From: Octadecabacter algicola
Lineage (GTDB): Bacteria > Pseudomonadota > Alphaproteobacteria > Rhodobacterales > Rhodobacteraceae
Direction: 5' to 3'
NCBI RefSeq assembly: GCF_021532625.1
Contig: NZ_JAKGAR010000004.1
Span: 186,001-250,000, forward strand
DNA: 64,000 bases
The translations under genes and the position numbers were made by a program. Positions within the stretch are counted from its first letter, which is position 1; each line of letters begins with the position of its first letter. The notes under the pieces are model-generated. The model ran no database searches and was not told the DNA's origin. It worked only from the letters and a program-made list of their open reading frames with translations. Positions 509 through 19,293 of this stretch are shown here, piece by piece.

Positions 509-632
509 TTTGGTTTCCTCCCAAAGAAATGCCCATCACGGGCAGAGTGCCGTGACCTTGGTGCCCCAGCTTCAGCCATGCAACGGCTGGGATGCGGCCT
601 TTCACACTGATCATGCAATTATTCGGCAGGTT

Positions 633-680: not shown

Positions 681-706
681 AGAACTAGATCAGAAAGGGG
701 CAATGC

Positions 707-2892: not shown

Positions 2893-2984
2893 CTCGCGAA
2901 CTGATCTAGTGAACCGGATGCGCCGTTAGGTGCGATGCCAAGACCAAATCGGTCAAGGGAATCTCTATCAGGGTAACTCACTAA

Positions 2985-3200: not shown

Positions 3201-3286
3201 TTTATTTAACGGCCGGTCTTCACACATTGCGTTCCTCCGGATGTTGTTCAGAGCCCATGAACTTGGCAGCCTAATCTCAAACAAAC

Positions 3287-3853: not shown

Positions 3854-3911
3854 TTCTAAATTCGCCTTTGCGTACTGGATGGCCGTTATTGTTGCTCAAC
3901 ATGCAGCGAGA

Positions 3912-4172
3912 TCAATCCGTTGAATAATTGAGGTCTTCCAGCCATTCTCGCAAAGAGTACTCTAAATCGGACACATGATTTCCTAACGCATCCTCATGTT
4001 CAACGTCTTCGTCGACACGAGATTTAATGTCGTGATACCGCTTTGACAGCTCTGCATTCGTTGCTGTGTGGCCATCATGCCAGCGGTTCTTTGCATGCTT
4101 TGAGGCTGTTACTTCCTTGAGTTTTGCAGAAAGCGCGTCCAGTCGTTCGCGCAGCACATTTGATCCAGTCAT
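3912..4172 (-). CDS. Small helical hypothetical protein
   Basis: 86 residues, not recognised. It is hydrophilic and rich in charged residues, with long predicted helices (RLDALSAKLKEV near the start, DLEYSLREWLEDL near the end), suggesting a small soluble helical or coiled-coil protein. There is no signal peptide, membrane segment or cysteine. An AAGGA ribosome site lies at proper distance upstream of the ATG at 4172. It lies between a DegP-type protease gene and the Rieske gene, all on the minus strand, separated from the protease gene by a hairpin. A stress-related role is only suggested by the neighbours. Confidence 0.6.
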   Translation of the reverse strand: MTGSNVLRERLDALSAKLKEVTASKHAKNRWHDGHTATNAELSKRYHDIKSRVDEDVEHEDALGNHVSDLEYSLREWLEDLNYSTD

Positions 4173-4190
4173 TCTAAGTTCCTTTGATTA

Positions 4191-4221
4191 TTCCGGGTGA
4201 GAGAAAACCTCACACCCGGAA
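4191..4221 (-). terminator. Hairpin downstream of the DegP-type protease gene
   Basis: Arms 4191-4203 and 4209-4221 pair over 13 bases with one mismatch (TTCCGGGTG core) around the loop AAAAC. It lies 40 bases after the protease stop codon on the minus strand. No clear U-run follows, so it may be an attenuator or an RNA end-protecting structure rather than a full terminator. Confidence 0.5.
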
Positions 4222-4261
4222 GTGTCGTAGATTTGGGCCGTTCGTCATCGGGCTATTGGCC

Positions 4262-5368
4262 TTAAGCTTCCTTGTCTTCACGAGTTTCCAGAGTGACCTC
4301 GAGCGCAAATTGCTCGCCACCGCGGAACACTTCGATTTCGGCAACTGACCCAGATGCTTCGTTTGCGACGCCCCGCGTCAGATCACGCAGTTCAACAATG
4401 TCCTGTCCTGCGAACCGCAAGATCACGTCGCCATTCTCAATACCTGCGGCTTCCGCAGGGCTATCGGCCACAACGTCTTCGACCATCACGCCTTCGCCAG
4501 CCTTTAGCCCAAGCACATGCGCGACGTCTTCGCTCACGGGTTTGATTTGAACGCCTAGCCAACTGCGCTCAATCTCACCATCATCCTTTAGGTCTGCCAC
4601 GATGTTTGTGACTAGATCGGCTGGAACTGAGAAGCCGATCCCAACCGAACCGCCGTCTGGTGAATAGATCGCTGTGTTCACGCCAACAACTTCACCGTCC
4701 ATGTTGAACAGAGGGCCACCTGAGTTTCCACGATTGATAGCAGCATCGGTTTGAATATAGTCATCGAACGGGCCCGCGTTGATATTGCGGGATTTGGCAG
4801 AGATGATGCCAGACGTCACCGTCCCACCAAGGCCAAAGGGGCTGCCGACTGCGATCACTTCTTCGCCAACGCGCAGTTCGTCAGATGAGCCAAATGAAAC
4901 TGTCGGAAAATCATCGCCTTCGATATCTAACAGAGCAATATCTGTCAGCGGGTCAGAGCCGATTATGGTCGCATCATATTCTTCACCGTCGGCCATCTTG
5001 ATCGTGACTTGTGCCGCGCCATCAATGACGTGGTGGTTGGTCACGATCAGGCCGTCATCAGAAATGATAAAGCCGGAACCGACGCCCTGTTGAGGGGTGC
5101 TGCGGCCTTGTTGAGGTATCTCACCGCCAAATCGTTTCATGAATTCTTCGAAGCGAGGGTCGTCCATAGGGCTTGCTTCAGCACCCGCCAATTGAACACT
5201 GGCCGTAACTTCTACGAACACCACGGCGGGGCTTACATCCTCGACAAGTTCTACATAACCGTTGCCGCCGTTTGCAGCGGCCATAGCGGAAGTCGACACC
5301 ATCGCGCCAAGGGTTGCTATGACGCTGAGGGCACCAATTGAACGGTGTTGAGTTTTGATTCTTTGCAT
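4262..5368 (-). CDS. Periplasmic serine protease, Do/DegP family
   Basis: About 368 residues from the chosen start. An ATG 18 bases further upstream exists, but GGAG sits 7 bases before the ATG at 5368, and the protein then begins with a clean signal peptide (MQRIKTQHRS to STSAMA). Catalytic residues, counted from this start, are H113 in VTNHHV, D143 in LTDIALL and S216 in GNSGGP. One PDZ domain follows, starting near SWLGVQIKPVSE; classical DegP has two, so this is the shorter DegS/HhoB-like layout. It would degrade or sense misfolded envelope proteins. Neighbours (permease, cardiolipin synthase, MarC) also point to the envelope. Confidence 0.9.
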   Translation of the reverse strand: MQRIKTQHRSIGALSVIATLGAMVSTSAMAAANGGNGYVELVEDVSPAVVFVEVTASVQLAGAEASPMDDPRFEEFMKRFGGEIPQQGRSTPQQGVGSGFIISDDGLIVTNHHVIDGAAQVTIKMADGEEYDATIIGSDPLTDIALLDIEGDDFPTVSFGSSDELRVGEEVIAVGSPFGLGGTVTSGIISAKSRNINAGPFDDYIQTDAAINRGNSGGPLFNMDGEVVGVNTAIYSPDGGSVGIGFSVPADLVTNIVADLKDDGEIERSWLGVQIKPVSEDVAHVLGLKAGEGVMVEDVVADSPAEAAGIENGDVILRFAGQDIVELRDLTRGVANEASGSVAEIEVFRGGEQFALEVTLETREDKEA

Positions 5369-5451
5369 TTTCGTCTCCATTTGCATTTGCTACAAAGACG
5401 TAAGGACCTGTCCTCAATTTGACCTGTTCCGAAGTTTAATTCTTTTTGAAG

Positions 5452-6666
5452 TTAGCCACTGGCCGGAATCCCCAGAACCGCTATGGCAAATGCAACAAGT
5501 GCCAGGAAACCAAACCACTTCTCTTTGCCACTATCGCCTTTGTGACGCGCGACGAGAACGGCAACCACGCATTGCAATGCATAAAACAGTGCAAACGCTC
5601 GCGAGGCGAGAGTAACGATGGACACCACATCGGTTGACCAAATAACGCAAATCGCAACGGCACCGATAACAAGGTAGGCGTGTTTCGGGGTAATGTGCCC
5701 TTTGGTTGTCGTGCTAACCAATCCGCTTGCGCCAATCGAATCTGCTACGGAGGCACTAAACTGGCTGGCGATTGCACCCGCAGTGACAACATAGGGCAAC
5801 CAAGGCGATACGCGCCCAATCACATCAATAAATCCGGCAACATCCGCTGTGGACGTGAAGTAAGGGAACAGTGGGATCATCAGAATGAAAAAACAAACGT
5901 AAACCAATGAAGAAACGATCTGTGCACGTTTCATTGCGGATATGCGAACCTTTCCGCTATACATCTGCCCCATGAAACGTGTTGTCTCAAAGCCTTGTAC
6001 GATAATCAAAAGCCCCATCAGGAACCGAAGGGTGTCCCAATCAAATTCGTGAGTCTGTTTCGAGGCCGCTGTCCAACTATAAGTTTCTGGCAGCGTGAAT
6101 CCAAAAATGACCAAAGACACCAGCAGTGCAGCAATGGCCGCAAGGTTAGCACTGACAGTGAATTTCTCTGCACGCTCGACGCCCTCCAACCCTTTGGTTG
6201 CACCAACGAAACAAATTGCCGAGATCATTGCTGTCGCCACGGCCTTTCCTAAAAACGGGTCATTCCAGCCGATCAATTTTAGGCCAAATGCAGACAACAA
6301 TACGAGGTAGTACGCAACTGAGATAAAGTACGCACCTATCAGAACCAGATGCGAAAGTGTCTCAATCGACTTTATCGGGTGGCCAACTTCAGCCGCGTCA
6401 AAGATAGGTTCGCCCTTCGCAATGTTGTAGCGAATGGCACCGCCAATCAAGAAGGCCAAGAATGTCAAACCAACAACGGCGGCCACGGCCCAAATGCCAA
6501 TCGCACTGGCCAAGAGAGGCACCGACACCAAGAAGCCACTACCAATGATCGATGCTAAAGGTGTGACCGTCGCCGACCACCCTTTGTTGTTTCGTACTGG
6601 TCCGCTGACCAATATGAAAAAGGCGATCACCAACCCTGCGATCATTGTAATATCGAGCATTGTCAT
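5452..6666 (-). CDS. Multi-pass inner-membrane permease, APC-like
   Basis: About 404 residues with some eleven hydrophobic segments spread evenly along the chain. The start at 6666 is preferred over one at 6696: AAGGA lies just upstream, and the later start removes an overlap with the cardiolipin synthase gene. The pattern (SIIGSGFLVSVPLLAS in an early helix, unwound glycine-rich stretches, long hydrophobic helices) resembles the amino acid-polyamine-cation superfamily fold. I do not recognise a specific family or substrate. It directly follows the cardiolipin synthase gene (13 bases) on the minus strand and is probably cotranscribed with it. Confidence 0.65.
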   Translation of the reverse strand: MTMLDITMIAGLVIAFFILVSGPVRNNKGWSATVTPLASIIGSGFLVSVPLLASAIGIWAVAAVVGLTFLAFLIGGAIRYNIAKGEPIFDAAEVGHPIKSIETLSHLVLIGAYFISVAYYLVLLSAFGLKLIGWNDPFLGKAVATAMISAICFVGATKGLEGVERAEKFTVSANLAAIAALLVSLVIFGFTLPETYSWTAASKQTHEFDWDTLRFLMGLLIIVQGFETTRFMGQMYSGKVRISAMKRAQIVSSLVYVCFFILMIPLFPYFTSTADVAGFIDVIGRVSPWLPYVVTAGAIASQFSASVADSIGASGLVSTTTKGHITPKHAYLVIGAVAICVIWSTDVVSIVTLASRAFALFYALQCVVAVLVARHKGDSGKEKWFGFLALVAFAIAVLGIPASG

Positions 6667-6679
6667 AAGGACTATCCTT

Positions 6680-8113
6680 TCAAAGTACCGGACCAATGGT
6701 GGCTATGACGTTGTTCCAGATGCGTCGATGCGCGCGCCAAGCGATGACATCCGACAGCGCGACCCGGTCTGATTGAATAATGTACTCACCCTGGCGTTTT
6801 CGGATTGCCGCAGTTGTTTCATTGTCCTGCAACAGGATGTTGTTTTCGTAGTTCAAATCAAAGCTGCGCAAGTCGAGGTTTGAGGAACCAATCAAAGAAA
6901 CCTTACCATCAATCGTGAGCGTCTTGGCGTGGAGCAGCCCGCCCTTGAATTCATGTATCTCGCACCCAGCCGACAGAAGTTTGCGATAGTAGCTTCGACT
7001 TGCGGCAGCCACGATCCAGCTGTCGTTGGTTTGTGGGAAGATCAAAGTAACGATGACACCACGATGCGCGGCCGCACAAAGCGCCTCCAGCACGGTAGCA
7101 TCCGGCACGAAATAGGGCGTTGAAAGTGTCAAAGTGTCTTGCGCACATGCTATGAGGCTCGCGAACAGCTGCGGGGTGGCCCCTTTGCGTTCAGTTGGCC
7201 CGTCGCCCATGACTTGGGCCGCGAACCCGCCCTGCTTTGCGGCGGCGGTTAATTCGAACTCATCAAGGTTTTCATCTGTTGCCTGTATCCAGTCACTGAG
7301 AAACAGCAATTCATTCTGCGCAACGATGGGGCCCTCAAACCGCAGCATGATGTCGACCCATGGGGCGTATTTCGCTTTAACCAGAAACTCGGGATCAGCG
7401 GAGTTCCGGCTTCCACAATAGGTTATCTTGCTATCGATGACGGTTATTTTGCGGTGATTTCGAAGATCAAACCGGCTCGTCAGAAGTGTGCGGATCAAGT
7501 TGTTCAACGGCAAAGCCGCTGCCATGTGGACACCGGCATCCTTCATGTCTTGCCACAGAGGCGATTTGATCAAGGCCCGCGACCCCAAACCGTCCGCCAT
7601 GGCGCGGCAGATAACGCCCCTGCGCGCGGCACGGATCAAGGCGTGCGCAACGTCTGTGCCGGTTTGGTCGCCCAGCCAAATATAGTACAGGACATGGACA
7701 TGGCTTTGCGCGGCATCGATGTCAGCAATCAGGCGCGCATTGGTCGCAGCCGCATTCGCCATCAACTCGGCCCTATTTCCTTCGACTGTATGGAATCCGT
7801 TGATCGAACCCGCATACTGAAACGCGGACCTGTAAAGGGGATCGATCAGGCGGTTTGCCTCCTCCTTGCTTCCCATAAGATGAGTCGCTTTAGCTCGGAT
7901 TTGATCGAAGATTTCTGTATGGCGTTTATTGGCCTTATTCCCAAGATCGATTTCCCCAAACAGAAAGTAGATAACGCTACCGACAAAAGGCAGCACCATC
8001 AGGACAATGAACCATGCCAGTCGTGCGGGTGGTGAAAGATCATCTCGCAACAAGATACGAACGGTAAACCCGACTACGATAAGTAGATGTAGAGTGAGCA
8101 GAAATTCAGTCAT
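6680..8113 (-). CDS. cls: Cardiolipin synthase (phospholipase D superfamily)
   Basis: 477 residues. Two N-terminal membrane segments (about residues 4-22 and 32-52) precede two phospholipase D domains. The two HxKxxxxD motifs are complete: H220-K222-D227 (NHRKITVID) and H395-K397-D402 (LHAKTLTID), each followed by the usual GS-N motif (GSRN, GSSNLD). This is the normal length and architecture of bacterial cardiolipin synthase, which joins two phosphatidylglycerols into cardiolipin at the inner membrane. It sits in a minus-strand envelope cluster, upstream of the permease and downstream of the YrhK-like gene. Confidence 0.93.
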   Translation of the reverse strand: MTEFLLTLHLLIVVGFTVRILLRDDLSPPARLAWFIVLMVLPFVGSVIYFLFGEIDLGNKANKRHTEIFDQIRAKATHLMGSKEEANRLIDPLYRSAFQYAGSINGFHTVEGNRAELMANAAATNARLIADIDAAQSHVHVLYYIWLGDQTGTDVAHALIRAARRGVICRAMADGLGSRALIKSPLWQDMKDAGVHMAAALPLNNLIRTLLTSRFDLRNHRKITVIDSKITYCGSRNSADPEFLVKAKYAPWVDIMLRFEGPIVAQNELLFLSDWIQATDENLDEFELTAAAKQGGFAAQVMGDGPTERKGATPQLFASLIACAQDTLTLSTPYFVPDATVLEALCAAAHRGVIVTLIFPQTNDSWIVAAASRSYYRKLLSAGCEIHEFKGGLLHAKTLTIDGKVSLIGSSNLDLRSFDLNYENNILLQDNETTAAIRKRQGEYIIQSDRVALSDVIAWRAHRRIWNNVIATIGPVL

Positions 8114-8249
8114 TGGATTTACTCCGTGTAATCTAGCTCATTCGCCGTTGAATTGAAGCGACTGGTCCGAAGTGCATGGCTGTAGATCCGCACCCCGCCT
8201 CGTCAGGAGGGCAATCATAGGCGTTGAAGTACCAACCGACCTGCACGTT

Positions 8250-8522
8250 TCATCCTTTGGCGATATCGTCGTAATCACCAAGCCTAAGGTATCCGATCTC
8301 ACGATAAAGCTTAATTGTGGGGCGCAACCCAAACAGCACGGACCCGACGACAAAAAGCCATGTTCCGAAGTAGGTTGTACTTTCATTGAAGAACAGAAAA
8401 CTTCCGATGACGAACAGTGCTGCTGCAGAGAAATCAACCACTGTGTAGGCCATTTCGCACAAAGCGTAGAGCCGCTTATGATCTTCGGATTTGGTGTGGT
8501 TGTCTGGATTAAACAGTTTCAT
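8250..8522 (-). CDS. YrhK-like small membrane protein
   Basis: 90 residues. A hydrophilic N-terminus is followed by two membrane segments (about residues 27-45 and 50-66), and FNESTTYFGTWLFVVGSVLF with a following RPTIKLYRE is the signature of YrhK-domain proteins. Function of the family is unknown. A GGGGACG ribosome site precedes the ATG. It begins 10 bases after the MarC-family gene on the same strand, so the two form an operon. A 136-base gap without a gene separates it from cls. Confidence 0.75.
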   Translation of the reverse strand: MKLFNPDNHTKSEDHKRLYALCEMAYTVVDFSAAALFVIGSFLFFNESTTYFGTWLFVVGSVLFGLRPTIKLYREIGYLRLGDYDDIAKG

Positions 8523-8532
8523 TTTCGTCCCC

Positions 8533-9165
8533 TTATGCCAGCCCCGGAAGAACAGCTTTTATACCCGCAACGATCATCTCAACTGCGATTGCCAATAATA
8601 TCATACCCATCAGACGTGTCATGATAACGCGCATCGTATCTGTAAGAACCTTGCCAAAGAACGAGGCAAAGAACAGCACAACAAACAGCATCGCAAGAAT
8701 CACCCCCACGACGCCACCAACGGCGATCAGTCCAGTCATCCCTTTGGCATGTCCGGCATAGATTATCAGCGTTGCGATTGTGCCGGGTCCGACGATCATC
8801 GGGAAGGTAATTGGGTAGAACGCAAGACCGGACAGATCTTGCATGTGATCTTGTTCTTTGTCGGTGCCGTGGTGCGATGTAATACTACTTCCGTTCAGCA
8901 TGGACCACGCAATATGGGCCAATACAACACCACCGGCGATCCGAAACTGATCAACGGTAATGCCAAAGAAACCGATGATTTTTTGGCCTGCGAACAAGAT
9001 GATTACGCACATAATTGCTGAGAATATCGTGATCTTCAGCGCCAGTGTCCGTTGTTGCGCGATCGTGAAACCCGCAGTCAGCGCCAGAAAGATCGGCAAG
9101 TTCACAAATGGGTTCATAATCGCAAAAAATGCCCCAAATGCTTTGGTGAGTTCGGCGTAGTCCAT
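8533..9165 (-). CDS. MarC-family integral membrane protein
   Basis: 210 residues with six hydrophobic segments. The N-terminal FGAFFAIMNPFVNLPIFLALT, the central FPMIVGPGTIATLI and the C-terminal RLMGMILLAIAVEMIVAGIK are characteristic of the MarC/UPF0056 family. Its function is not firmly known; the old link to multiple antibiotic resistance was withdrawn. An AGAGGGA ribosome site lies upstream of the ATG. It is first in a minus-strand group with the YrhK-like gene. The 169-base upstream spacer contains a run of nine G at 9264-9272. Confidence 0.88.
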   Translation of the reverse strand: MDYAELTKAFGAFFAIMNPFVNLPIFLALTAGFTIAQQRTLALKITIFSAIMCVIILFAGQKIIGFFGITVDQFRIAGGVVLAHIAWSMLNGSSITSHHGTDKEQDHMQDLSGLAFYPITFPMIVGPGTIATLIIYAGHAKGMTGLIAVGGVVGVILAMLFVVLFFASFFGKVLTDTMRVIMTRLMGMILLAIAVEMIVAGIKAVLPGLA

Positions 9166-9334
9166 TTTAGTCCCTCTTGTTTTTCATAATCCTACGCCAA
9201 ACATTTTAGATGGCAAAGCGCGCCCTCCGTGAGTGACCGTTCTGCCTTGTACGGAGCCCGTTCGGGGGGGGGCACGCCAGTCAGAACTGACTAAGCTGTT
9301 AATTGTGTTAGATTGCGTGAACCTGTCGCGAACT

Positions 9335-10696
9335 TCAGGAATTTTTGAGGATAGGAAAACGTAGCGAGACTTCGAACCCCGTAGATGTGTTGTCGAGGGA
9401 GATTTGGGCATCGTGCAATTCAGAAATCGCCCTAACAATCGCTAACCCCAAGCCATGACCCGGCGTCCCACGATCGGACGCGCCGCGCGCAAACGGCTCA
9501 AGGATGGTTTCTTTGCTGACCTCTAAAATGCCCGGCCCTGTATCCTTAATGATCAGTGAAACGGCGTCAGTATCGGATGCAATCACAGCATCAATTGAAG
9601 CCCCTGTTCCCGCATGAACAACTGCGTTTTGAACAAGATTGATCACCGCCTGCTGGATCATGTCAGGGTCTGCGTCTATCTGCGCTTCGACCCCGCAGAG
9701 CTTCAGTGTCTGGCCGTTTTCCTCCGCCATTGGCGCCAAGAAGCTAATGGCATTGTCGGTAACATCCCAAAGTGAGACATTGCAAAAATTCCTACGATCC
9801 TTTGCGTTTTGAATGCTCGACAGACGAAGGATCGTCTCAAATAGAGTGTTGAGCCTATCAGTTTCAGCAAGCGCGTCCGCAATCTTGCTGCTGGCCAACT
9901 CATTGGCCGTGACGGCATCTGCGGCTTGGTGCATTGCGATCTGCGCGTGGGAAAGCGGTGTCTTAAGGTCGTGCGCGATGGCTGAAGCAGTAGTTTTCAC
10001 ACTCGATACAAGTCGCTCAAGTTGCGCTAAATTTGCGTTCATGCGCGCCGATACACGGTCAAACTGATCATTCTTGGATCCAACAGGCAGCCGCCTGTCT
10101 AATTGACCCGTCGATATGTCGCGAAGTGCAGCCTCCATGTCATTCAAACGAACCTGTGACCGCCGCGCCGCCCAGAGCCCTAAAGTCAACGTGGCCGCAC
10201 CCAAAAGTATGCCAAAACTGACAAGCCCGAACAGGAGACGTTTTCGGGCATGCGCGATCATATCGCCATTGCGACCAACTATAACCGTGAGCGCATCAAA
10301 ATGATCCACCTGCAGAACGAACAGGCCGGCAATTCGACCGCCGGTCAGAACACTGAGATCGCGTGTTCCAAATCCGATAAAATCTGGTTGAGCAGAAATC
10401 GGTCCTGTGAGGTTGAGATTGCGTTCATCAAAGAGGCCGTAGACGCGGTCAGTGCTGCGGCTTTGCTTCCCTAATGTGTCTATCGCACTAACCAGCCCTG
10501 TCGTTCCTTCATCGCGATAGATCTGTTTCAACAGTTCCGTTTCAACACGAATGAGAGCCTGTAGGTCCTCACGCAAGGTTGTCTCAACCGATTTAATGAG
10601 CGCCCAAGATGCGATTGAATACAAAACCAGAAAGACGCAGAGCACCCGAAAGGTAGCTTTAAACGGCTCACTGCGGATTAGGCTATCTAGGCGCAC
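9335..10696 (-). CDS. Sensor histidine kinase
   Basis: 453 residues, GTG start at 10696, overlapping the end of the regulator gene by 14 bases. Membrane segments lie at about residues 16-35 and 154-175, enclosing a periplasmic sensor domain of about 118 residues. A HAMP domain follows, then H242 in AIAHDLKTPLS, N-box NLVQNAVVH, G1 box DTGPGI and G2 box GHGLGLAIV. All catalytic motifs are intact, in contrast to the kinase at 1441-2892. It pairs with the OmpR-type regulator upstream. The signal is unknown; an envelope cue is suggested by the adjacent marC, cls and protease genes. Confidence 0.93.
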   Translation of the reverse strand: MRLDSLIRSEPFKATFRVLCVFLVLYSIASWALIKSVETTLREDLQALIRVETELLKQIYRDEGTTGLVSAIDTLGKQSRSTDRVYGLFDERNLNLTGPISAQPDFIGFGTRDLSVLTGGRIAGLFVLQVDHFDALTVIVGRNGDMIAHARKRLLFGLVSFGILLGAATLTLGLWAARRSQVRLNDMEAALRDISTGQLDRRLPVGSKNDQFDRVSARMNANLAQLERLVSSVKTTASAIAHDLKTPLSHAQIAMHQAADAVTANELASSKIADALAETDRLNTLFETILRLSSIQNAKDRRNFCNVSLWDVTDNAISFLAPMAEENGQTLKLCGVEAQIDADPDMIQQAVINLVQNAVVHAGTGASIDAVIASDTDAVSLIIKDTGPGILEVSKETILEPFARGASDRGTPGHGLGLAIVRAISELHDAQISLDNTSTGFEVSLRFPILKNS

Positions 10697-11360
10697 GGAT
10701 CGTGTATCCCATCCCGCGCATGGTATGCAGCAACGTCACATCAAAAGGCTTGTCGATCTTCTGGCGTAGCTTGCTAATATGCGTTTCAACAACTGTCGTC
10801 CCTGGATCGAAGTTGAAATCCCAAACCCTCTCTAGGATCATCGTGCGGCTAATCACGCGTCCCGCGTTTTCCATCAAAAGTTGAAGTAGGGAATACTCCT
10901 TGTTGTGCAGTTCGATTGTTTGGCTTTGCCGGTTTGCCGTGCGCTCCAACAGATCAAGGGTGAGATCATGCACTGTAAGTTTCGTTCGCTGCTCAGTCTC
11001 CTTGGGGCGCCTGGATAACGCCGTGATCCGTGCCAATAGTTCCGAAAAATGGAATGGCTTGACCATGTAATCGTCGCCCCCCGCCATCAATCCATCGACA
11101 CGGTCCTCTACATCGGACAAGGCCGTTAGAAAAATAACTGGAAGCTCAACCTTAGCCGAGCGCAACGACTTCACAAGCGACAACCCATCCATCCCCGGCA
11201 TCATTCGGTCAGCTATTAGGAGGTCGACTTCGTTATAAAGGCAATGGGTTAATGCCTCCCGACCGTCCGTCACCCAATCGACTACAAAGCCCTGCTCAAC
11301 TAAACCTTTTTGAACGTATTCGGCAGACGTTTCATCGTCTTCTGCAAGCAAGATTTTCAT
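10683..11360 (-). CDS. OmpR-family response regulator
   Basis: 225 residues: receiver domain with D51 (LLIADRMMPGMDG) as phosphoacceptor and K101 (DDYMVKPF), then a winged-helix domain ending in RQKIDKPF...RGMGYTIRAP. The length and motifs resemble the QseB/CopR/PmrA group. The gene is first of the regulator-kinase operon and overlaps the kinase gene. Its targets may include the co-oriented envelope genes that follow, but no binding-site array like the one at 633-680 was recognised upstream. Confidence 0.93.
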   Translation of the reverse strand: MKILLAEDDETSAEYVQKGLVEQGFVVDWVTDGREALTHCLYNEVDLLIADRMMPGMDGLSLVKSLRSAKVELPVIFLTALSDVEDRVDGLMAGGDDYMVKPFHFSELLARITALSRRPKETEQRTKLTVHDLTLDLLERTANRQSQTIELHNKEYSLLQLLMENAGRVISRTMILERVWDFNFDPGTTVVETHISKLRQKIDKPFDVTLLHTMRGMGYTIRAPR

Positions 11361-11400
11361 AAGATAAAATACTACCTGAACTTCCGTGTTCTACAATGTG

Positions 11401-11660
11401 CCTTTTCTGCGCCGCGGTGTCGACTTTCAAAGTCCAAGGTCCGGAATGTGTGATCTTCAGTCATTCGGGCATACTGCAGCATCGTTCAAAGTGGGCTCAT
11501 AGCGGCCATTCTCCGCTTTGCAGCATCATAGGTTATTAACCGAGAACTCACGACACGAACGGCCCTAAGCTGCCGTTTATCCCATTGCGTTGTGCCGCAG
11601 CGCAGCTTCACCGGACCGGTCATTCGCTGCCAATGCGGTTTTCTGAAGTGACTAGGGGTA
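11401..11660. repeat. Dispersed intergenic repeat, copy B, left of the defence island
   Basis: The 329-base gap 11361-11689 between the response regulator and the HNH gene holds no gene. Bases 11557-11624 align without gaps to copy A at 3066-3133. The surrounding sequence, read on the minus strand, contains a GTGTCGTGAG stretch that also occurs in copy C at 16744-16753. It marks the left border of the island of defence-type genes. No target-site duplication or integrase remnant was found in it. Confidence 0.55.
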
Positions 11661-11689
11661 GACGTGCGGAGCTTATTCGAAGCTTCGGA

Positions 11690-12337
11690 TTAGTCTGCTG
11701 GTTTTTGCGCTCGTGCCTTCACATAAGCACTATACAACTCGATTGCGGTTGCCTTGTCCGCCTGTGTTGCCTGTGGGTCCACCATAGTTCCTATCATCCC
11801 ATCCACCTGCGCGTTCGGGGGGGCGACTTCTAAGCCCGCCTTTGTGCAACCAAAACGTAAGAGATCGCACATGATTATCAGAGCTTTACCCTTCGGTGTA
11901 AGCGCTCGCACCACCTCACCATACCAACGGATGTGATCATTGTAGTTGTCGAAATGAGGGTGAACGATAACGTAGTTCTGTGACTGGTCGGGAAAGCTCT
12001 TACGCTTGGGGTTCGCCCGCACTTCATCCTCATGTTTCGCTATATTGCAGTCTTTGCATGATGCAGCCAAGTTGCGCGGTTCGAACATGAACTGCGGGGC
12101 GAGGTTCTTTGCAATTATGTGCTCGCCATCCCAAACCGCTTTGTTGCCGGTAGGATACTTACGACCGCAGTAGCAGCACTGGCGTCCTTGCTCAGCAATG
12201 TAGTGGTCCTTTATTTCCGCACGCACTGAGTTAACTTCATCGTCATTCCAGTACTTCGGGTCCTTCTCATCAGGCTGACGGGCTTCAAATGCATCAACCA
12301 GTGTCTTATTGGGCGCGCTGTATTGGACGGGATTCAT
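11690..12337 (-). CDS. HNH endonuclease, Septu PtuB-like
   Basis: 215 residues. The zinc pairs are C54-C57 (CCYCG) and C94-C97 (CKDC); the HNH core runs from GEHIIAKNL (H73) through PRNLAASCKDCNIAKH (N89, H102). This is a McrA-type HNH nuclease fold with both structural cysteine pairs present. The start overlaps the stop of the upstream ATPase gene by four bases (ATGA), so the two are translated together. An ATPase followed by an HNH nuclease is the layout of the anti-phage Septu system (PtuA-PtuB). The gene has a run of seven C (minus strand) at 11817-11823. Confidence 0.8.
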   Translation of the reverse strand: MNPVQYSAPNKTLVDAFEARQPDEKDPKYWNDDEVNSVRAEIKDHYIAEQGRQCCYCGRKYPTGNKAVWDGEHIIAKNLAPQFMFEPRNLAASCKDCNIAKHEDEVRANPKRKSFPDQSQNYVIVHPHFDNYNDHIRWYGEVVRALTPKGKALIIMCDLLRFGCTKAGLEVAPPNAQVDGMIGTMVDPQATQADKATAIELYSAYVKARAQKPAD

Positions 12338-13845
12338 GGTTGAGCTTCTGTCCCAGCGTCCCGCGCAGCATTTTCAACATTTTTGATCAGCTCAACTGCC
12401 GGATCAGTGGGTTCCAACTCAATGGCAAATTTGCGTAGGTCCGCGAGAGTCTCCGAAAATGCCGCAGAATTTACATCCCCGTTGGCTATCATGCGCAAAG
12501 CGCTGACTATGCGGTCCCGTACATGGAGATTATTTGGTGTCGGCGTACCGAAGATTTCAGCAAGGAGATAGTCTGCCGACTGCCCTTGAAGTTCTTTTTT
12601 CGAAGGAAGCTTTTCTTGATCCAAAGAAATGACTTCAGCATGCTCTGGCAGCTCTGAGATCACCATTGGCGAGTGCGTCGCCACCACAAAGTGACAGCCC
12701 TTGTATCGCGCGAACGTGCGCAGAAGAAGATCGACGTACTTGACCTGCCATTCTGGATGCAGGCTGAGCTCTGGTTCATCAATCAGCACTAGGCTGCCAT
12801 TCTCGATAACCGATGCAAGCGCGATAAGTGCAGACACCATGCTCAGCTGACCGGAACTCGCCTGAAGCAAGTCCGTAGGCCCACCATCGATGAGCTCAAC
12901 ACCAACACCAGAGAGACTAAGAAAGCCCGCACGGCGCAATGGTTGCAATTCGAGAAAAAGTGGATCTTGGAACCCCGATTGGAGATCCGCGTGTGTCTCG
13001 ATTTGACTACGCTCAGCTTTATTCAGCGCGAGATTGGCCAACTCCCTCAAATTTGCAGTTGTAAGTTCACTTCGCATGATGTCGTCAAGTAACCTTCTCC
13101 TCGAGTATGGTTCATTGTTGGACACAGAAGGGTCGAGCCCGTTTGCAAACTCACGCAGTAGTGACTTTTCCCGGAGCCGGTAGACCGCTGTGACCATGGG
13201 AACCATGCCGAGAAAATCGAAAACTGCGCCAATGTTACTACGGCGCAGTGCGCTGTTATCGGAACTATCGAACAGGCTGCTTAGAGAGCGAAAGAGCAGT
13301 GTCCGGATCGAAGCTTTCCCGAAATTGTCTCGTAGCCCCAGGTAGCGATACATTGGTGACGCAACTTCCAATGGCGCCACTGACCTTGGAATCGTTCGCG
13401 GCACCGGAAACTTGTCGAAGGGACTGATCGTCAGCGCAACGATGCGTCTAGGCAGCGGGAGCTCTTCTGGTGCCACTTCGCGACCATCAACGTGCGCAGT
13501 AATTGTACGATCTTTTCTTTGAGTGATCGTGCAATTGTGACCATCAACCTGGTAGACTAACAAGTCTAACGGCAGGACGCCCCTAATCTGTTTTCGCTTA
13601 CCTCTTTGTAATTCCTCAACGCGCAAGAAAGTCTGAATAATTGCACTTAGAAGATGCGATTTACCCGTTCCATTTTTGCCTATGATGGCGGTGAGTTGCT
13701 CGTGCTGCTCGCCGTTTGGATGGGCAATTCGACTAAAAAATGCGTGAGGGTTGATGTACGGAATACCTTTCCGTCGCCAGGGTATTTCTACGGGCACATC
13801 TGCAGTGCGCGCTTCTAGCAACTGAAAATCATCTCCAGCGTACAT
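12334..13845 (-). CDS. AAA/ABC-type ATPase, Septu PtuA-like
   Basis: 503 residues. Walker A is GKNGTGKS (56-63); the signature region is LQASSGQLSMVSAL (327-340); Walker B with D-loop is LVLIDEPELSLHPEW (352-366); the H-switch is VVATHSP (387-393). This is the OLD/RecF-like ATPase layout without a TOPRIM nuclease domain, as in PtuA. The last about 100 residues are helical. GGAG lies close before the ATG. The cotranslated HNH gene would supply the nuclease. Exact subtype needs a profile search; a retron-linked PtuAB is unlikely because no reverse transcriptase is nearby. Confidence 0.82.
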   Translation of the reverse strand: MYAGDDFQLLEARTADVPVEIPWRRKGIPYINPHAFFSRIAHPNGEQHEQLTAIIGKNGTGKSHLLSAIIQTFLRVEELQRGKRKQIRGVLPLDLLVYQVDGHNCTITQRKDRTITAHVDGREVAPEELPLPRRIVALTISPFDKFPVPRTIPRSVAPLEVASPMYRYLGLRDNFGKASIRTLLFRSLSSLFDSSDNSALRRSNIGAVFDFLGMVPMVTAVYRLREKSLLREFANGLDPSVSNNEPYSRRRLLDDIMRSELTTANLRELANLALNKAERSQIETHADLQSGFQDPLFLELQPLRRAGFLSLSGVGVELIDGGPTDLLQASSGQLSMVSALIALASVIENGSLVLIDEPELSLHPEWQVKYVDLLLRTFARYKGCHFVVATHSPMVISELPEHAEVISLDQEKLPSKKELQGQSADYLLAEIFGTPTPNNLHVRDRIVSALRMIANGDVNSAAFSETLADLRKFAIELEPTDPAVELIKNVENAARDAGTEAQP

Positions 13846-14007
13846 ACGTTCTCCAAAACTATTTGCTTCTGCAACTCTTGATTGTTTTCTGCGGGATGTC
13901 GAGCAAGATCACTAGAGGTGGAGACTATAAGTAAGGCTGACGATTGCCGCTTCCTGAAATGCGCCGCTCAACCTATAGTTAATTGGATTAAGCAGAAACG
14001 GTGAAAT
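13846..14007. promoter_or_regulatory. Divergent promoter region between two defence-type modules
   Basis: These 162 bases separate the minus-strand ATPase/HNH pair from the plus-strand small-protein/SMC-like pair, so they must carry both promoters. TATAGT at 13974-13979 is a possible -10 for the plus-strand genes, with only a weak -35 (TTCCTG) 17 bases before it. No LexA-type or clear palindromic operator was recognised. Confidence 0.3.
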
Positions 14008-14184
14008 ATGGCGTCGCTTCAAGAAGCAGTTGTAAGAAAGTTCCTCCAGACCCTGGACGAAAATGAGACATTCGATCAATCGAAGACCGCAAAGCTTGAA
14101 GCGCTCCTAAAGGCAGACGGGAAGATCAAACCGGACGATCTTGCCGCGATCTTCGCCCTCCCGGACGGTGGAGAGATCCTATGA
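14008..14184 (+). CDS. 58-residue protein coupled to the SMC-like ATPase
   Basis: A short gene of 58 codons plus stop. It begins MASLQEAVVRKFLQ, is acidic and probably all helical, with two lysine-bearing stretches (SKTAKLEALLKADGKI and KPDDLAAIF). No known domain is recognised. Its stop codon overlaps the start of the large ATPase gene (ATGA at 14181-14184), which argues that it is translated and that the two products work together in a fixed ratio. Codon use and frame are consistent with a real gene. It could be a regulatory or inhibitory subunit of the ATPase, or an antitoxin-like partner. Confidence 0.7.
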   Translation: MASLQEAVVRKFLQTLDENETFDQSKTAKLEALLKADGKIKPDDLAAIFALPDGGEIL

Positions 14185-16643
14185 TCAAGATTGCTTCGGC
14201 GCATATCGAGGAGTTTCGCGGCATTCGGAAGCTGGACATCGACTTTGCCGAAAAATCCTTCGCAGTATCTGGCCCGAATGGCTCGGGAAAAAGCGGGGTC
14301 ATCGATGCAATTGAATTTGCACTCACAGGTCAGATTGGTCGTCTGACCGGACCGGGAACCAAAGGGTTGTCGCTCGGAGATCATGGTCCGCACGTTGACC
14401 GTATCAAATTCCCAGATGCGGCATTCGTAGAGCTCGAAGTATCGTTTCCGACGCTGGGCAAGAATGCCAAGCTGACCCGTAAGATTTCTGCCCCCAAAAA
14501 TCAAATGATTGAGCCAAGCGATCCGGACATCGTGGCGATATTGGATGAGGTTGCTCAGCATCCCGAAATCACTTTGGCGAGACGGGAAATTTTGAAGTTC
14601 ATCCTGGTCGAACCAACAAAACGCTCTGCGCAAATTCAAGAGATTTTGAAGATCGATGAACTGGGCCAGACTCGTTCGGCATTGAACACTGCTTCTGGCA
14701 AACTCAATCGGGCTGCGATCGCAGCTGAAAAGGATACGCTAAACAAGAAAAACACCTTGATGCAGCACTTGGAGATTGCCTCATTGTCTGCAGCCGAGAT
14801 GCTGGGAGCCGTGAATGCAAAGCGCGAGCTGCTCGGCCTCGCGGTCCATCATGCCATTACGGCCGAGACCGTCATCGACCAAGGCTTGGCAGAGCCTAGC
14901 CAAGAAAAATCACTCAACAAGCCTGCCGCACTGATTGAACTAGACAAGCTGACTAGGGCGATAGCGGGGTTTGGCCAGGCAAATTCGCCAGACGCGCAGG
15001 CGCTTGTTGTTCAGATCGAGCAACTTGAAAATGACGCGCAGCTCCTTGTTTCGCTGCAGCAACGTGAGTTGGTAGAACGCGGATTGAAATTGGTCGATGG
15101 CCCCGCATGTCCGATGTGCGACCATGAATGGCCAGATGAAGCACACCTACTTTCGCATCTGCATGCAAAGCAGCAGAAATCGAACGCTGCTGGGGAACTT
15201 AAGCAGCAACTTTTGGATCATGCGTCGGCGCTCTCAACGGAGGTTGGAGCCCTGAAGGCGCTCTTGATCGAAACGCATCGTATTGCGAAGCTTGAAAACG
15301 CGACCGAGATTTTGGCTAGCGTGACGGCTTGGGGCAAAAACCTCGCCTCACTACAGGAACGGCTAAAGTCATTTACGGAGATATTGGAGCTCAGGGATTG
15401 GCTAACTTCCGGATGGCCGGACATTCCGGAAGACTTCGAAGCAAAGCTTGCGGCTTTTGTTGACGCGATACGTGCGAAGCCCGACCAGTCAGCGACCTTG
15501 GCCGCACAGAGTTTTCTAATCAACGCAGAACAAAGGTTTAAGGACTACAAAGCAGCTCGGCAGGCTGAGAAAAAGGCACAAAAGGCTCGTGACGCCGGGA
15601 AAGTTGCTTACGACGCATGGTGCGCGGCAATGGAGTCTGAGCTCGACGAGCTATATGAGGCTGTGGAGGATGACTTCAGCAACTTCTACCGCATCTTGAA
15701 TGATGGCGACGAGCAGAAGTTCGTCGCCCGATTTAAGGCCACTGAAGGGCGTCTCGATTTCGATGTGAACTTTTATGAGCGGGGCCTTTTCCCGCCAGGG
15801 GCTTTCCATAGCGAAGGACATCAGGACGGAATGGGGGTCTGTCTCTACCTTGCTTTGATGAAGCGGCTACTCGGCGATAGCTTTACGGTCGCGCTGCTTG
15901 ATGACGTAGTCATGTCAGTCGATGCAGACCATAGATACCAGTTCTGCAAGCTGTTGATGTCGGAATTTCCAGACACGCAATTCATAATAGCAACGCACGA
16001 CAAAGTTTGGGCAGAGCAGATGCGCTCATCGAAGTTGGTGTCGCGAAAGACGTCAATGATATTTGACAGTTGGTCAGTGGAGACTGGTCCTTTGGTGGAG
16101 TCCAACCCGGAGATTTGGGTAGAGATTGATGCAGCCTTGGCGAAGGGCAAGGTCGAAGTTGCTGCACCGATATTGCGGCGTCACATGGAGTTTGTCGCTC
16201 GATTGCTAGCGGATCAACTGGGAGCACAAACTGTCTTTCGAGCTGACAACAGCTACGATCTTGGAGGGCTCTTACCAAGTGCTATGTCCAGGCTGTCAGA
16301 CCTTTTAGGTAAGGCCATCGACTCGGCGCAATCTTGGGGTAACGAAGACCAAAAATCCGAGGCACTCGCGCGTAGACAGCGGCTAAAGCAGGCAAACACC
16401 CATAAGGGTGAGGAAGATTGGACGATCAACAAGGCAATACACTTCAATGAGTGGGCCAACTTTAGTCCGAATGACTTCAAGCCGGTTGTTCAAGCGTTCA
16501 AAGATCTTTTGGCGTGCGCGCAATGCGATGACTGCGGTTCTTGGCTGTACATCACGCCCAAAGGTACTTCGCCCGACGGGCTTCGGTGTTCGTGCAATGC
16601 TGCAAATTTCAATCTGAAGAACAAGCCAAAGCAACTACCTTGA
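14181..16643 (+). CDS. Rad50/SMC-like ATPase with zinc hook and C-terminal zinc ribbon
   Basis: 820 residues. Walker A GPNGSGKS (31-38) follows the EFRGIRKLDIDF N-terminus typical of RecF/Rad50-type ATPases. Two helical arms flank a CPMC hook (310-313), like the zinc hook of Rad50. The C-terminal head has the signature SEGHQDG (544-550, in place of LSGGQ), Walker B VALLDDVV (570-577) and H-loop IIATHD (602-607). Unlike Rad50, about 200 residues follow the head: a helical region (about 650-775) and a zinc ribbon with C782, C785, C803 and C805. It would be a DNA-end or DNA-structure sensing ATPase. No nuclease domain is visible in it. The partner is the 58-residue protein upstream. Confidence 0.85.
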   Translation: MIKIASAHIEEFRGIRKLDIDFAEKSFAVSGPNGSGKSGVIDAIEFALTGQIGRLTGPGTKGLSLGDHGPHVDRIKFPDAAFVELEVSFPTLGKNAKLTRKISAPKNQMIEPSDPDIVAILDEVAQHPEITLARREILKFILVEPTKRSAQIQEILKIDELGQTRSALNTASGKLNRAAIAAEKDTLNKKNTLMQHLEIASLSAAEMLGAVNAKRELLGLAVHHAITAETVIDQGLAEPSQEKSLNKPAALIELDKLTRAIAGFGQANSPDAQALVVQIEQLENDAQLLVSLQQRELVERGLKLVDGPACPMCDHEWPDEAHLLSHLHAKQQKSNAAGELKQQLLDHASALSTEVGALKALLIETHRIAKLENATEILASVTAWGKNLASLQERLKSFTEILELRDWLTSGWPDIPEDFEAKLAAFVDAIRAKPDQSATLAAQSFLINAEQRFKDYKAARQAEKKAQKARDAGKVAYDAWCAAMESELDELYEAVEDDFSNFYRILNDGDEQKFVARFKATEGRLDFDVNFYERGLFPPGAFHSEGHQDGMGVCLYLALMKRLLGDSFTVALLDDVVMSVDADHRYQFCKLLMSEFPDTQFIIATHDKVWAEQMRSSKLVSRKTSMIFDSWSVETGPLVESNPEIWVEIDAALAKGKVEVAAPILRRHMEFVARLLADQLGAQTVFRADNSYDLGGLLPSAMSRLSDLLGKAIDSAQSWGNEDQKSEALARRQRLKQANTHKGEEDWTINKAIHFNEWANFSPNDFKPVVQAFKDLLACAQCDDCGSWLYITPKGTSPDGLRCSCNAANFNLKNKPKQLP

Positions 16644-16760
16644 ACGCCATTCGTTGTGAACTCGCTGGAGCAGCCAACGTCTGCTTTGGATGGCTGCGCA
16701 TTTACAATTTGCGAGCATAGCGAAAGTCAGCTTTCCGCCCTTAGTGTCGTGAGACGTCAT
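16644..16760. repeat. Dispersed intergenic repeat, copy C, right of the defence island
   Basis: Part of the 388-base gene-free stretch 16644-17031. Bases 16719-16757 (GCTTTCCGCCC.TAGTGTCG block) align to copy A at 3027-3065 with 31 of 39 positions identical. In copy A this segment directly precedes the segment matched by copy B, so copies B and C resemble different halves of A. The rest of the gap (16761-16970) is AT-rich with no gene seen, and a hairpin lies at 16971-17001. Confidence 0.5.
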
Positions 16761-16970
16761 ACCACTTTGGTGAAAAATCCATCAATAAACACGGTTTGAC
16801 ACATAGCCGTCTCTAGTTTTTTAGCCGCAACGAATAAGCACACATCAAGCATGATTGAAATTGAAGCCGTTACAGAAAATCAAAATGCCCGCTACTAGGG
16901 CCGAGTTCTATCACCTTAATGTTTTCAGACACTTAGACATCAGTGGAAGAATTAGACCTGATTAGTGGAA

Positions 16971-17001
16971 GGCAATTCAGCCAAAGTGGCGCTGAATTGC
17001 C
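16971..17001. terminator. Perfect hairpin downstream of nrdJ
   Basis: GGCAATTCAGC at 16971-16981 pairs perfectly with GCTGAATTGCC at 16991-17001 around a nine-base loop. It lies 31 bases after the nrdJ stop on the minus strand. No U-run follows on either strand, so it is a likely but not classical transcription end. Confidence 0.45.
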
Positions 17002-17031
17002 TGTCGTTTCACAAGTTCCTAAACGTTTGGC

Positions 17032-19293
17032 TCAGCCACATTTTGAATGCCCGCAGTCGGAGCACGTCATACAGCCCTCGACCATACGTAGCGTGTATTG
17101 GCCGCAGCTCGGGCAAGCGTTGCCTTTGGGTGTCATCGGAACGACGTCCGCATGCGGGTCTGATTTCAGCCCCATTCCCTCGCCCGCCAAAAAGCCCGTC
17201 GAAACCATGTGCTTTTCAATGACTCCGCCGATCGCGGCAAGAATGGACGGCACATACTTACCCTGCATCCATGCGCCACCACGCGGGTCGAAAACGGCTT
17301 TCAGTTCTTCAACAACAAAGCTCACGTCGCCGCCACGGCGGAACACGGCTGAAATCATCCGCGTTAACGCGACGGTCCACGCAAAGTGTTCCATGTTCTT
17401 GGAATTGATGAACACCTCGAACGGGCGGCTTTGGCCCTGATGCTGGATGTCGTTTACTGTGATATAAATCGCGTGCTCACTATCGGGCCATTTTAGCTTA
17501 TAGGTCTGCCCCGTCAGTTCACCTGGGCGGTCCAGCGGTTCGGTCATGTAGATTACGTCACCGACGTTCTGATCCGCGATCACTTCCGGTTTTGGATCTT
17601 CCGCGACCGACAAAACCGACCCTGTAACCTCATTCGGACGATAAGTCGTACAGCCCTTGCAGCCACTGTCCCATGCTTCCATGTAGACGTCTTTGAAAGA
17701 CTGGAAATCTATGTCTTCTGGTACGTTGATGGTCTTGGAGATTGAGCTGTCGACCCATTTCTGAGCCGCCGCTTGCATGCGGACATGCTCCAGTGCCGGC
17801 AACGTCTGCGCATTGACAAAATAGTCGGGCAATTCGACATCGCCGTGCAGATCACGCCACATCTTGACTGCATAATCCACGACTTCTTCCTCGGTGCGAC
17901 TGCCGTCCTTTTGCAAGACCTTGCGAGTATAAGCATAAGCAAATACCGGCTCGATCCCGCTGGACACATTCCCTGCATAAAGCGAAATCGTCCCAGTTGG
18001 CGCAACGGACGTCAGCAAAGCGTTGCGAATGCCATGTTCGCGAATGGCATCACGCACATCATCATCCATCTGTTTCATATTGCCCGACGCCAAATATTGG
18101 TCCGCATCGAACAACGGGAACGCGCCCTTCTCCTTAGCCAAGTCAACCGACGCCAGATACGCGGCGCGTGCGATCGCTTTCATCCAGACTTCCGTCTGAC
18201 GCGCCGCTTCTTCCGATCCATAGCGCAAGCCCACCATCAGCAAAGCATCCGCAAGACCCGTAACGCCAAGCCCGATCCGTCGCTTTGCAGCGGCTTCTTT
18301 TGCCTGCGCCTCGAGCGGGAACTTTGACGCATCAACCACGTTATCCATCATGCGAACGGCTGTTGCGACCAACTCTGTCAGCTCGTCTTCTTTGACCTGT
18401 GCGGCCTCTTCGAACGGGAAATGCACCAATCGTGCAAGGTTGATCGATCCCAGCAAGCACGCCCCATAAGGTGGCAAAGGCTGTTCACCACAAGGGTTCG
18501 TCGCGGCGATGGTCTCTACATAGTTGAGGTTGTTCATCTCGTTGATACGGTCGATGAAAATAACTCCCGGTTCGGCGTGGCTGTAGGTGGACGACATGAT
18601 GCTGTCCCACAATTCACGCGCTTGAACCGTGCGCACAGTCGCACCGTCCCAGACCAGATCCCAAGGCTGATCGGCCTTTACAGCCTCCATGAACGGGTCC
18701 GTTACAAGGACGGACATATTGAACATCCGCAGTCGTGCCGCATCCGATTTGGCAGTAATAAAATCTTCTACGTCAGGGTGGTCACAGCGCATCGTTGCCA
18801 TCATCGCGCCACGACGCGATCCGGCGGACATGATCGTGCGGCACATCGCGTCCCACACATCCATGAAAGACAGCGGACCAGACGCATCCGCGGCAACACC
18901 TTTAACGACAGCACCTTTGGGGCGAATGGTCGAGAAATCATACCCGATCCCGCCACCCTGCTGCATCGTCAACGCCGCCTCGCGCAGGTTGTCGAAAATG
19001 CCTGACATGGTGTCAGGAATCGTGCCCATGACAAAACAGTTGAACAAGGTGACGGCACGGTCCGTCCCTGCCCCAGCTGTGATACGCCCAGCAGGCAGAT
19101 AACGGAAATCCTCGAGCGCTTTGTAGAACTTCGGCTCCCATTCGCTTGGCTTTTTTTCAACGCTGGCCAAGGATTTTGCGACCCGCGCCCACGTGTCTTC
19201 GACTGTGGCATCAATCGGTGTACCATCACCCTCTTTCAGGCGGTATTTCATGTCCCAGATTTGTTCGGCAATAGGGGCAGCAAAGCGGGTCAT
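17032..19293 (-). CDS. nrdJ: Adenosylcobalamin-dependent ribonucleotide reductase, class II
   Basis: 753 residues. The active-site motif NPCGEQPLPPYGACLLGSINL carries the N-x-C-x-E triad, LTMQQGGGIGYDFS and TGTISLYAGNVSSGIEP are conserved barrel elements, and the C-terminus has a cysteine-rich ribbon (CPSCGQYTLR to CSDCGHSKCG). These identify the B12-dependent reductase that converts ribonucleoside diphosphates to deoxy forms in the cytoplasm without needing oxygen. The gene is monocistronic. A NrdR-like palindrome lies 45 bases upstream. cobU in this window (56.3 kb) fits a B12-dependent lifestyle. Confidence 0.96.
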   Translation of the reverse strand: MTRFAAPIAEQIWDMKYRLKEGDGTPIDATVEDTWARVAKSLASVEKKPSEWEPKFYKALEDFRYLPAGRITAGAGTDRAVTLFNCFVMGTIPDTMSGIFDNLREAALTMQQGGGIGYDFSTIRPKGAVVKGVAADASGPLSFMDVWDAMCRTIMSAGSRRGAMMATMRCDHPDVEDFITAKSDAARLRMFNMSVLVTDPFMEAVKADQPWDLVWDGATVRTVQARELWDSIMSSTYSHAEPGVIFIDRINEMNNLNYVETIAATNPCGEQPLPPYGACLLGSINLARLVHFPFEEAAQVKEDELTELVATAVRMMDNVVDASKFPLEAQAKEAAAKRRIGLGVTGLADALLMVGLRYGSEEAARQTEVWMKAIARAAYLASVDLAKEKGAFPLFDADQYLASGNMKQMDDDVRDAIREHGIRNALLTSVAPTGTISLYAGNVSSGIEPVFAYAYTRKVLQKDGSRTEEEVVDYAVKMWRDLHGDVELPDYFVNAQTLPALEHVRMQAAAQKWVDSSISKTINVPEDIDFQSFKDVYMEAWDSGCKGCTTYRPNEVTGSVLSVAEDPKPEVIADQNVGDVIYMTEPLDRPGELTGQTYKLKWPDSEHAIYITVNDIQHQGQSRPFEVFINSKNMEHFAWTVALTRMISAVFRRGGDVSFVVEELKAVFDPRGGAWMQGKYVPSILAAIGGVIEKHMVSTGFLAGEGMGLKSDPHADVVPMTPKGNACPSCGQYTLRMVEGCMTCSDCGHSKCG

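Follow-up and report, generated by a model that had tools for sequence, protein, structure and literature searches.

What does a coiled-coil ATPase with a zinc hook do when its gene is preceded, and slightly overlapped, by a gene of only 58 codons? The question is raised by a pair of genes from Octadecabacter algicola (assembly GCF_021532625.1, contig NZ_JAKGAR010000004.1, positions 186,001 to 250,000, forward strand), a stretch of 64,000 nucleotides (nt) that we analysed as a whole and call the window. A sequence-only reading had seen the pair, P0001 (58 residues) and P0002 (820 residues), as a candidate undescribed defence module in which the short protein regulates or docks on the ATPase. 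Both open reading frames (ORFs) are present where that reading placed them, joined by an ATGA start/stop overlap (Table 1) from which we infer translational coupling. Comparison across genomes established that the small gene and the ATPase are a real, old two-gene unit in bacteria and archaea. As to its function, our best explanation is a self-contained anti-invader module that would act in the manner of RloC with a dedicated small subunit, a tentative reading that falls a little short of an even chance.

The unit is defined by linkage. Whether homologues of the small gene always adjoin the ATPase was a check that the sequence-only reading had called for; across genomes, the small gene lies directly upstream in 48 of the 49 loci that we judged, mostly with a 4-nt overlap, and the sole exception is a Streptomyces locus (L133). 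These 49 loci comprise 20 from a scan of one genome per species, 21 from plasmids and 8 further genome loci; they include near-duplicates (L022/L023; L008/L009/window; L014/L015/L034). The scan, made with an 11-sequence alignment, gave 34 loci, 20 of which (L022-L041) were full-length at 31-57% identity and came from, among others, Alphaproteobacteria, Anaeromyxobacter, Verrucomicrobia, Gordonia, Paeniglutamicibacter, Arthrobacter, Nitrospirota, Mucilaginibacter, Chloroflexi metagenome-assembled genomes and Methanophagales. In all 20 a small ORF ends at the ATPase start, with the 4-nt overlap in 17 and values of -3, 7 and 14 nt in the others. The remaining 14 scan loci matched weakly or over short stretches and stand outside the pairing count; they are a remnant (L042), seven that were inspected (three read as SbcC-type, four without an ATPase call) and six others. 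From 32 plasmid records with an ATPase match, 21 were judged and 11 left out, and the small gene is present in 20 of the 21, including loci of Halorhabdus, Halobacterium, Halorientalis, Natrinema, Haloarcula and Halomontanus, as it is in all 8 further genome loci. Also outside the pairing count are L003-L007 (weak partial matches), L062 and L068 (contig ends), and L066, L069 and L071 (broken copy). Two of the scan loci are damaged: in Arthrobacter (L041, 8001-10010) the ATPase ORF is interrupted near the C-terminal domain, and the domain runs on in a different frame, and in Sphingobium (L042, 2143-2322) there remain the ATPase's first ~60 residues, entered from upstream by an open frame that is probably an insertion element.

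The overlap between the two genes is beyond chance, because under one permissive rule for family loci and control ORFs alike, a 4-nt overlap with an upstream ORF of 50-85 amino acids (aa) was found at 16 of 18 family loci but at only 15 of 153 other ORFs of at least 250 aa in the same loci. The small ORF is conserved between phyla, and distances between small proteins correlate with those between their ATPases (Mantel r 0.79 over 29 loci; 0 of 2000 permutations as high), as expected if the two genes are inherited jointly. The small proteins are 53-81 residues long, depending on the choice of start codon, and mostly acidic (mean net charge -5.8, n = 35; three positive); P0001 itself has 7 K/R against 11 D/E and a pI of 4.5. 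A small-protein profile gave three clear matches in 385 genomes, each adjoining the ATPase, and two marginal ones that fall within reading frames of 505 and 512 residues. These 385 genomes yielded no orphan small gene, in a search whose limited sensitivity is evident from the true small gene of one genome (G340) that it missed. On plasmids, all five tblastn matches of the small protein lie beside the ATPase.

P0002 is a Rad50/SMC-like ATPase. Its structure model is a strong match to Rad50/SMC heads, and Walker A residues G31, N33, G34, G36, K37 and S38 are invariant in an alignment of 19 sequences (A2). The CPMC hook (residues 310-313) and the unusual signature SEGHQDG were both read correctly from the sequence alone. 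Both hook cysteines occur in 49 of 50 aligned homologues (L133 again being the exception), and the signature varies among the 50, with SEG in 40, SES in 7 and SQS in 3.

Does the pair already have a name? The sequence-only reading had called for a profile search of both proteins, and no model in PADLOC, NCBIfam or Pfam names them together. P0001 has no PADLOC match and nothing above cut-off in NCBIfam or Pfam, and a comparison of six relatives' ATPases and three small proteins with PADLOC and Pfam likewise gave no named pair. Four of six other family ATPases exceed the gathering score of AAA_13, which we take to be the PrrC/RloC family. Plasmid records mostly annotate the pair as an AAA family ATPase and a hypothetical protein. 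Within the sampled portion of the open PMC literature, a source that gives weak evidence on this point, we recognised no description of the pair.

Among the alternatives to an RloC-like module, the one that survives best is a compact branch of Lamassu/ABC-3C, made up of an LmuB-like ATPase, a small gene in the place of LmuC and an LmuA-type effector that is fused or absent. The best PADLOC match of P0002 is indeed LmuB (PDLC03859, 2e-24), and two archaeal members match it over nearly the whole profile (L016, 2.5e-30; L017, 6.4e-32). In the parts of the Lamassu account that bear on this, LmuC is a small middle component that some systems lack, and many LmuB proteins have a zinc hook (PMC10586767). 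Yet P0002 covers only positions 164-593 of the 611 in the LmuB profile, and L017 is matched marginally better by mad3 of MADS than by LmuB (5.1e-32 vs 6.4e-32). The two aspartates of Walker B are present in 50 of 50 aligned homologues, while LmuB generally has a Glu to Gln change there, and LmuB, at ~650 aa, is described without a C-terminal domain like that of P0002 (same source). Nor do the four small proteins that were scanned (P0001, L067, L065 and L020) match any PADLOC model. The mismatch with the Lamassu layout noted from the sequence also stands: there is no LmuA in the window operon, both genes flanking the pair (Septu ptuA on one side, a ribonucleotide reductase gene on the other) are oppositely oriented, and neighbour families are common to 3 of the 34 loci at most, a count that a diverse LmuA could escape in blastp. 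We consider the Lamassu branch unlikely.

The same survey of neighbours delimits the unit. Across the 34 loci, some of them cut by contig ends, no third gene recurs within 7 kb, and the largest neighbour family (ORFs of at least 60 aa, compared by blastp) is common to 3, in keeping with the tight two-gene system first proposed. In the window, and likewise in L013, L014 and L018, the pair is flanked on either side by genes of the other orientation, and the unit is thus two genes alone. A Septu-like pair had been described as standing back to back with the module; this pair, a PtuA ATPase and a PtuB HNH nuclease, is Septu by its PADLOC matches (Table 1), and we place it outside the unit because no neighbour family is shared by more than 3 of the 34 loci.

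Several copies of the pair lie in defence-like neighbourhoods. Type IIG restriction enzymes are encoded upstream in L024 and L010, and on a Halorhabdus plasmid (L016, 4024-12667) the pair stands between BREX-5 pglX and pglZ, all on one strand. Genes for large PIN-TPR-GreABC proteins adjoin it in two unrelated organisms (L012, 10511-14233; L029, 1896-5786), downstream of the pair in one and upstream in the other. Neighbours elsewhere include AbiEii-type and abortive infection genes (L014), DarT-family, TIR and RES genes (L013) and a patatin/ThiF set read as CBASS-like (L020). Further copies lie among transfer or metabolic genes. At L130 the pair has a divergent neighbour annotated as a DNA repair exonuclease gene (252-1244, minus strand) and, on its other flank, a BPTD_3080 family restriction endonuclease. 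Directly upstream of the Sphingobium pair (L033) lies, at 4195-7767, the gene of another large SMC-like ATPase (AAA_27). Membership in BREX, considered on account of pglX and pglZ in L016 and of the large upstream gene in several loci, was rejected because the upstream genes are unrelated to one another (type IIG restriction-modification, PIN-TPR, SMC-like ATPase, ribonucleotide reductase).

The distribution of the pair is sporadic. In a set of 385 genomes from the class the ATPase profile has matches in 7 at E 1e-20, and in a set of 398 from the phylum in 6; both counts include the genome of the window, and some of these matches come from more distant clades alone. The pair occurs in several bacterial phyla and in Halobacteria; phage records gave no match to it, and one IMG/VR contig encodes a small protein identical to that of a Gemmobacter locus (L030). 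Of 18 other genomes in the genus, one (G006) has the pair, a member of a distant clade; this locus (L002) shows the same two-gene unit with a SESHLN signature. In the window the pair lies in an accessory segment (~2956-17019) between blocks conserved in the genus: the left block ends at ~2956, scattered matches alone to congeners follow from 2956 to 11400, and the right border is sharp, with the alignment to seven congeners starting at 17019-17034 in the 3' end of the ribonucleotide reductase gene. The small island seen in the sequence-only reading is therefore upheld as an accessory segment, but a clean empty site was not seen, the flanks in G001 being on different contigs. A second ribonucleotide-reductase-like match lies at G000:C7:75754-77451 and at similar places in congeners (54-58% identity); 15 such places were listed, and in 13 of them a TGA falls within the aligned part.

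Sparse occurrence also bears on the idea that the pair is a Rad50/SbcC-type DNA repair factor that happens to reside on accessory DNA, with the small protein as a structural cofactor. The head match, the exonuclease gene at L130 and the copies among transfer or metabolic genes would suit such a factor; its rarity at the class and phylum level, the lack of a recurring nuclease gene and the loci with restriction-modification, BREX-5 and AbiE genes would not, and we regard a repair role as highly improbable.

An RloC-like module would have its effector in the region behind the ATPase head. The sequence-only reading gave P0002 a 200-residue C-terminal extension with a zinc ribbon. The ribbon was confirmed, its cysteines C782, C785, C803 and C805 being invariant in the 19 sequences of A2 and all present in 42 of 47 homologues that have the C-terminal domain, but the length was not: the extension starts at ~640 and has ~180 residues, mostly helical, with the ribbon at its end. 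In the structure model, helices at 644-654, 658-680, 694-718, 722-744, 755-760 and 763-778 precede the ribbon. Among the 47 domain-bearing homologues, E670 and H754 are each present in all and N750 in 45. R666 is found in 40; in the other seven this position is G, while the residue preceding the N is R, which makes an RNx4H motif. Every one of the 47 thus has an Arg at R666, an RNx2-4H motif (9 of 47) or both, the last in two related archaeal rows; the window reads INKAIH. Since this swap of arginine positions follows clade lines, it was probably one or two events. The Streptomyces sequence (L133) LRNAVGAHYNEW aligns with INKAIHFNEW of the window, which ties the window motif to the canonical HEPN motif RNx4H. 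Compared as profiles, the C-terminal region of the window clade matches clade B at 98.2% probability and clade C at 97.8%; the clade C profile was built from L063, L068 and L020, with L067 contributing last residues only.

These residues recall the anticodon nucleases. In the passages of the RloC study that concern its active site, the RloC/PrrC triad is given as R-x3-E-x36-52-H, often with Ser before the His, and replacing any triad residue of RloC abolished tRNA cleavage in vivo (PMC2610378). The nuclease domains of RloC and PrrC belong to the HEPN superfamily, in which some motif-less domains probably bind RNA without cutting it, according to sections of a superfamily survey (PMC3710099). 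The R666-x3-E670...N750-x3-H754 set of P0002 resembles the RloC/PrrC triad, and the helical C-terminal domain that holds it may be an effector, a possibility that the sequence-only reading did not raise.

Natural truncations suggest which part of the ATPase the small protein serves. The ATPases of Natrinema L019 (654 aa) and Halomontanus L129 (657 aa) end at a nearly equal point past the head, with no remnant of the C-terminal domain in the ~900 nt downstream, and both loci retain the small gene with its 4-nt overlap. L133 (573 aa) has no hook and a short insert and keeps the C-terminal domain with RNx4H; no small ORF was found at this locus. A search for more relatives of L133 that lack the hook, covering 197 genomes from G780's class, returned none, a result that proves little, and the plasmid matches of L133 are records already in the family's set of 32. 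Because L019 and L129 keep the small gene without the domain and the hook-less L133 has none, what the small protein serves is probably the coiled-coil ATPase rather than the C-terminal domain, and it is probably no antitoxin; its proposed docking on the ATPase is consistent with all three truncations. A toxin-antitoxin pair, in which the small protein neutralises the RNase-like C-terminal domain, is the least credible account, for although the small first gene, the overlap, the HEPN-like motifs and the precedent of RNase LS and LsoA, HEPN toxins kept inactive by a partner gene product (excerpted from PMC3710099), would fit it, L019 and L129 retain the small gene with the domain gone and L133 has the domain with no small gene found.

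In the RloC-like module that we prefer, the ATPase would pair by way of its ABC heads and its zinc hook and act as a DNA sensor, perhaps one that responds to the ends or the topology of an invader's DNA. The small subunit, which is acidic and is translated immediately ahead of the ATPase, would bind the coiled-coil/head part and would be needed to assemble or license the ATPase, a role suggested by the association of the small gene with the coiled-coil ATPase rather than with the C-terminal domain. Engagement that depends on ATP would release the HEPN-like domain, in which R666, E670, N750 and H754, to judge from the motifs, would cut RNA, perhaps tRNA, and so stop growth of the infected cell. 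That the pair is in full an unnamed two-gene immune module of bacteria and archaea, a hook ATPase with its own RNase-type effector and a tiny subunit bound to the coiled coil, on which it depends, is possible, though on balance we doubt it. In that case the effector's catalytic arginine would seem to have shifted from one helix to another as the domain evolved.

Several observations weigh against the RloC-like module. The L019 and L129 systems persist without the C-terminal domain, and the coincident loss of hook and small gene comes from one locus, L133. Both the arginine swap and the domain loss track clade lines, and each may be a single event; L019 and L129 may represent one loss because the two are related. 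P0002 itself scores 8.9 bits against AAA_13, below the cut-off of 36. The C-terminal profiles of clades B and C align mutually at only 61.7%, and comparison of the C-terminal profile with seven RloC-like proteins (2.8%; reversed control 0.1%) and with six DUF4145 domains (4.8%) was not significant. No HEPN family is among the 23 Pfam families listed for 19 C-termini (A4). HEPN is thus a motif-based assignment, since the profile comparisons are non-significant and no Pfam HEPN family appears. No HEPN structure is among the 50 matches listed for the full model, all but two of which fall within residues 1-643. The spacing of E670 and H754 is 83, outside the 36-52 of RloC/PrrC, the canonical HEPN motif is without its Arg in the window clade, and P0002 itself shows no HEPN Rx4-6H.

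If the preferred reading is right, the pair would be a minimal, easily cloned addition to the SMC/Rad50-like immune ATPases and a bridge between the single-chain design of RloC and the multi-gene design of Lamassu. An orphan family that plasmid records mostly annotate as an AAA family ATPase and a hypothetical protein would acquire a function, and the effector-less and hook-less natural versions are ready tests of DNA sensing and effector firing.

Table 1 Features of the gene pair and its divergent neighbours in the window, with residue numbers of P0002.
Feature	Position	Strand	Remark
P0001, 58-aa acidic partner gene, first of pair	14008..14184	+	ORF in window
P0002, 820-aa SMC/Rad50-like ABC ATPase with zinc hook and C-terminal HEPN-like and zinc-ribbon region	14181..16643	+	
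ATGA start/stop overlap of P0001 and P0002	14181..14184	+	read from sequence
Walker A GPNGSGKS, residues 31-38	14271..14294	+	
Coiled-coil insert, residues ~159-510	14655..15710	+	long helices in structure model
Zinc hook CPMC, residues 310-313	15108..15119	+	
ABC signature SEGHQDG, residues 544-550	15810..15830	+	
Walker B LLDDV, residues 572-576	15894..15908	+	aspartate replaces usual catalytic glutamate
Helical C-terminal domain, HEPN-like by motif only, residues ~640-780	16098..16520	+	structure model
R666-x3-E670, in helix 658-680	16176..16190	+	
N750-x3-H754 (NKAIH), after helix 722-744	16428..16442	+	pLDDT <50 at 744-754
Zinc ribbon C782, C785, C803, C805	16524..16595	+	
PtuB HNH nuclease, divergent neighbour	11690-12337	-	PADLOC 2e-60
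PtuA, divergent neighbour	12334-13845	-	PADLOC 5.3e-95

How, finally, does the pair compare with systems that are known? It differs from Rad50-Mre11/SbcCD in its C-terminal domain, its sporadic distribution and the absence of a recurring nuclease gene; that no such partner accompanies it had been noted from the sequence and agrees with the oppositely oriented ptuA and ribonucleotide reductase genes beside it. For Wadjet, no third gene recurred within 7 kb of the 34 loci, in a survey that did not seek JetA, JetB or JetD individually. With the mad3 profile of MADS, P0002 gives a match of 9.6e-16 and L017 one of 5.1e-32, and P0002 scores 15.2 bits against NCBIfam MAD3, where the cut-off is 420. 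A DNA-binding partner like DndE was considered; the small proteins are mostly acidic (three of 35 positive), unlike DndE, and the partner is small for a two-RHH protein. DndD/CxC with DndE, as far as part of one report describes it, is likewise an obligate pairing of a coiled-coil ABC ATPase and a small partner in defence loci (PMC10853773), whereas the hook here is CxxC and not CxC. Lamassu/ABC-3C (LmuABC, DdmABC) shares the zinc-hook SMC-like ATPase and a small upstream gene, and differs in that the pair has no LmuA in its operon, carries the Walker B aspartate and an extra C-terminal domain, and encodes a 58-aa small protein that no profile matches. The closest likeness is to RloC, which in the portions of its description relevant here has an ABC ATPase split by a coiled coil with a CxxC hook, a size of 658-897 aa, comparable to the 820 aa of P0002, a C-terminal R-x3-E...H set also found in P0002, and a hook whose mutation stimulated tRNA cleavage (PMC2610378). 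Among seven RloC-like (AAA_13) alphaproteobacterial genes that served as controls, six have R-x3-E with a later His, and none has an ORF of 45-110 aa ending -30 to +60 nt of its first possible start. RloC is a single-gene system, whereas our pair has its small partner in nearly every locus, and the ATPase of the pair differs from RloC in its zinc ribbon, its wider E-H spacing and its lack of a significant C-terminal profile match. We file the pair with the coiled-coil ABC-ATPase kind of defence system, as one that would work most like RloC while standing outside both RloC and Lamassu.

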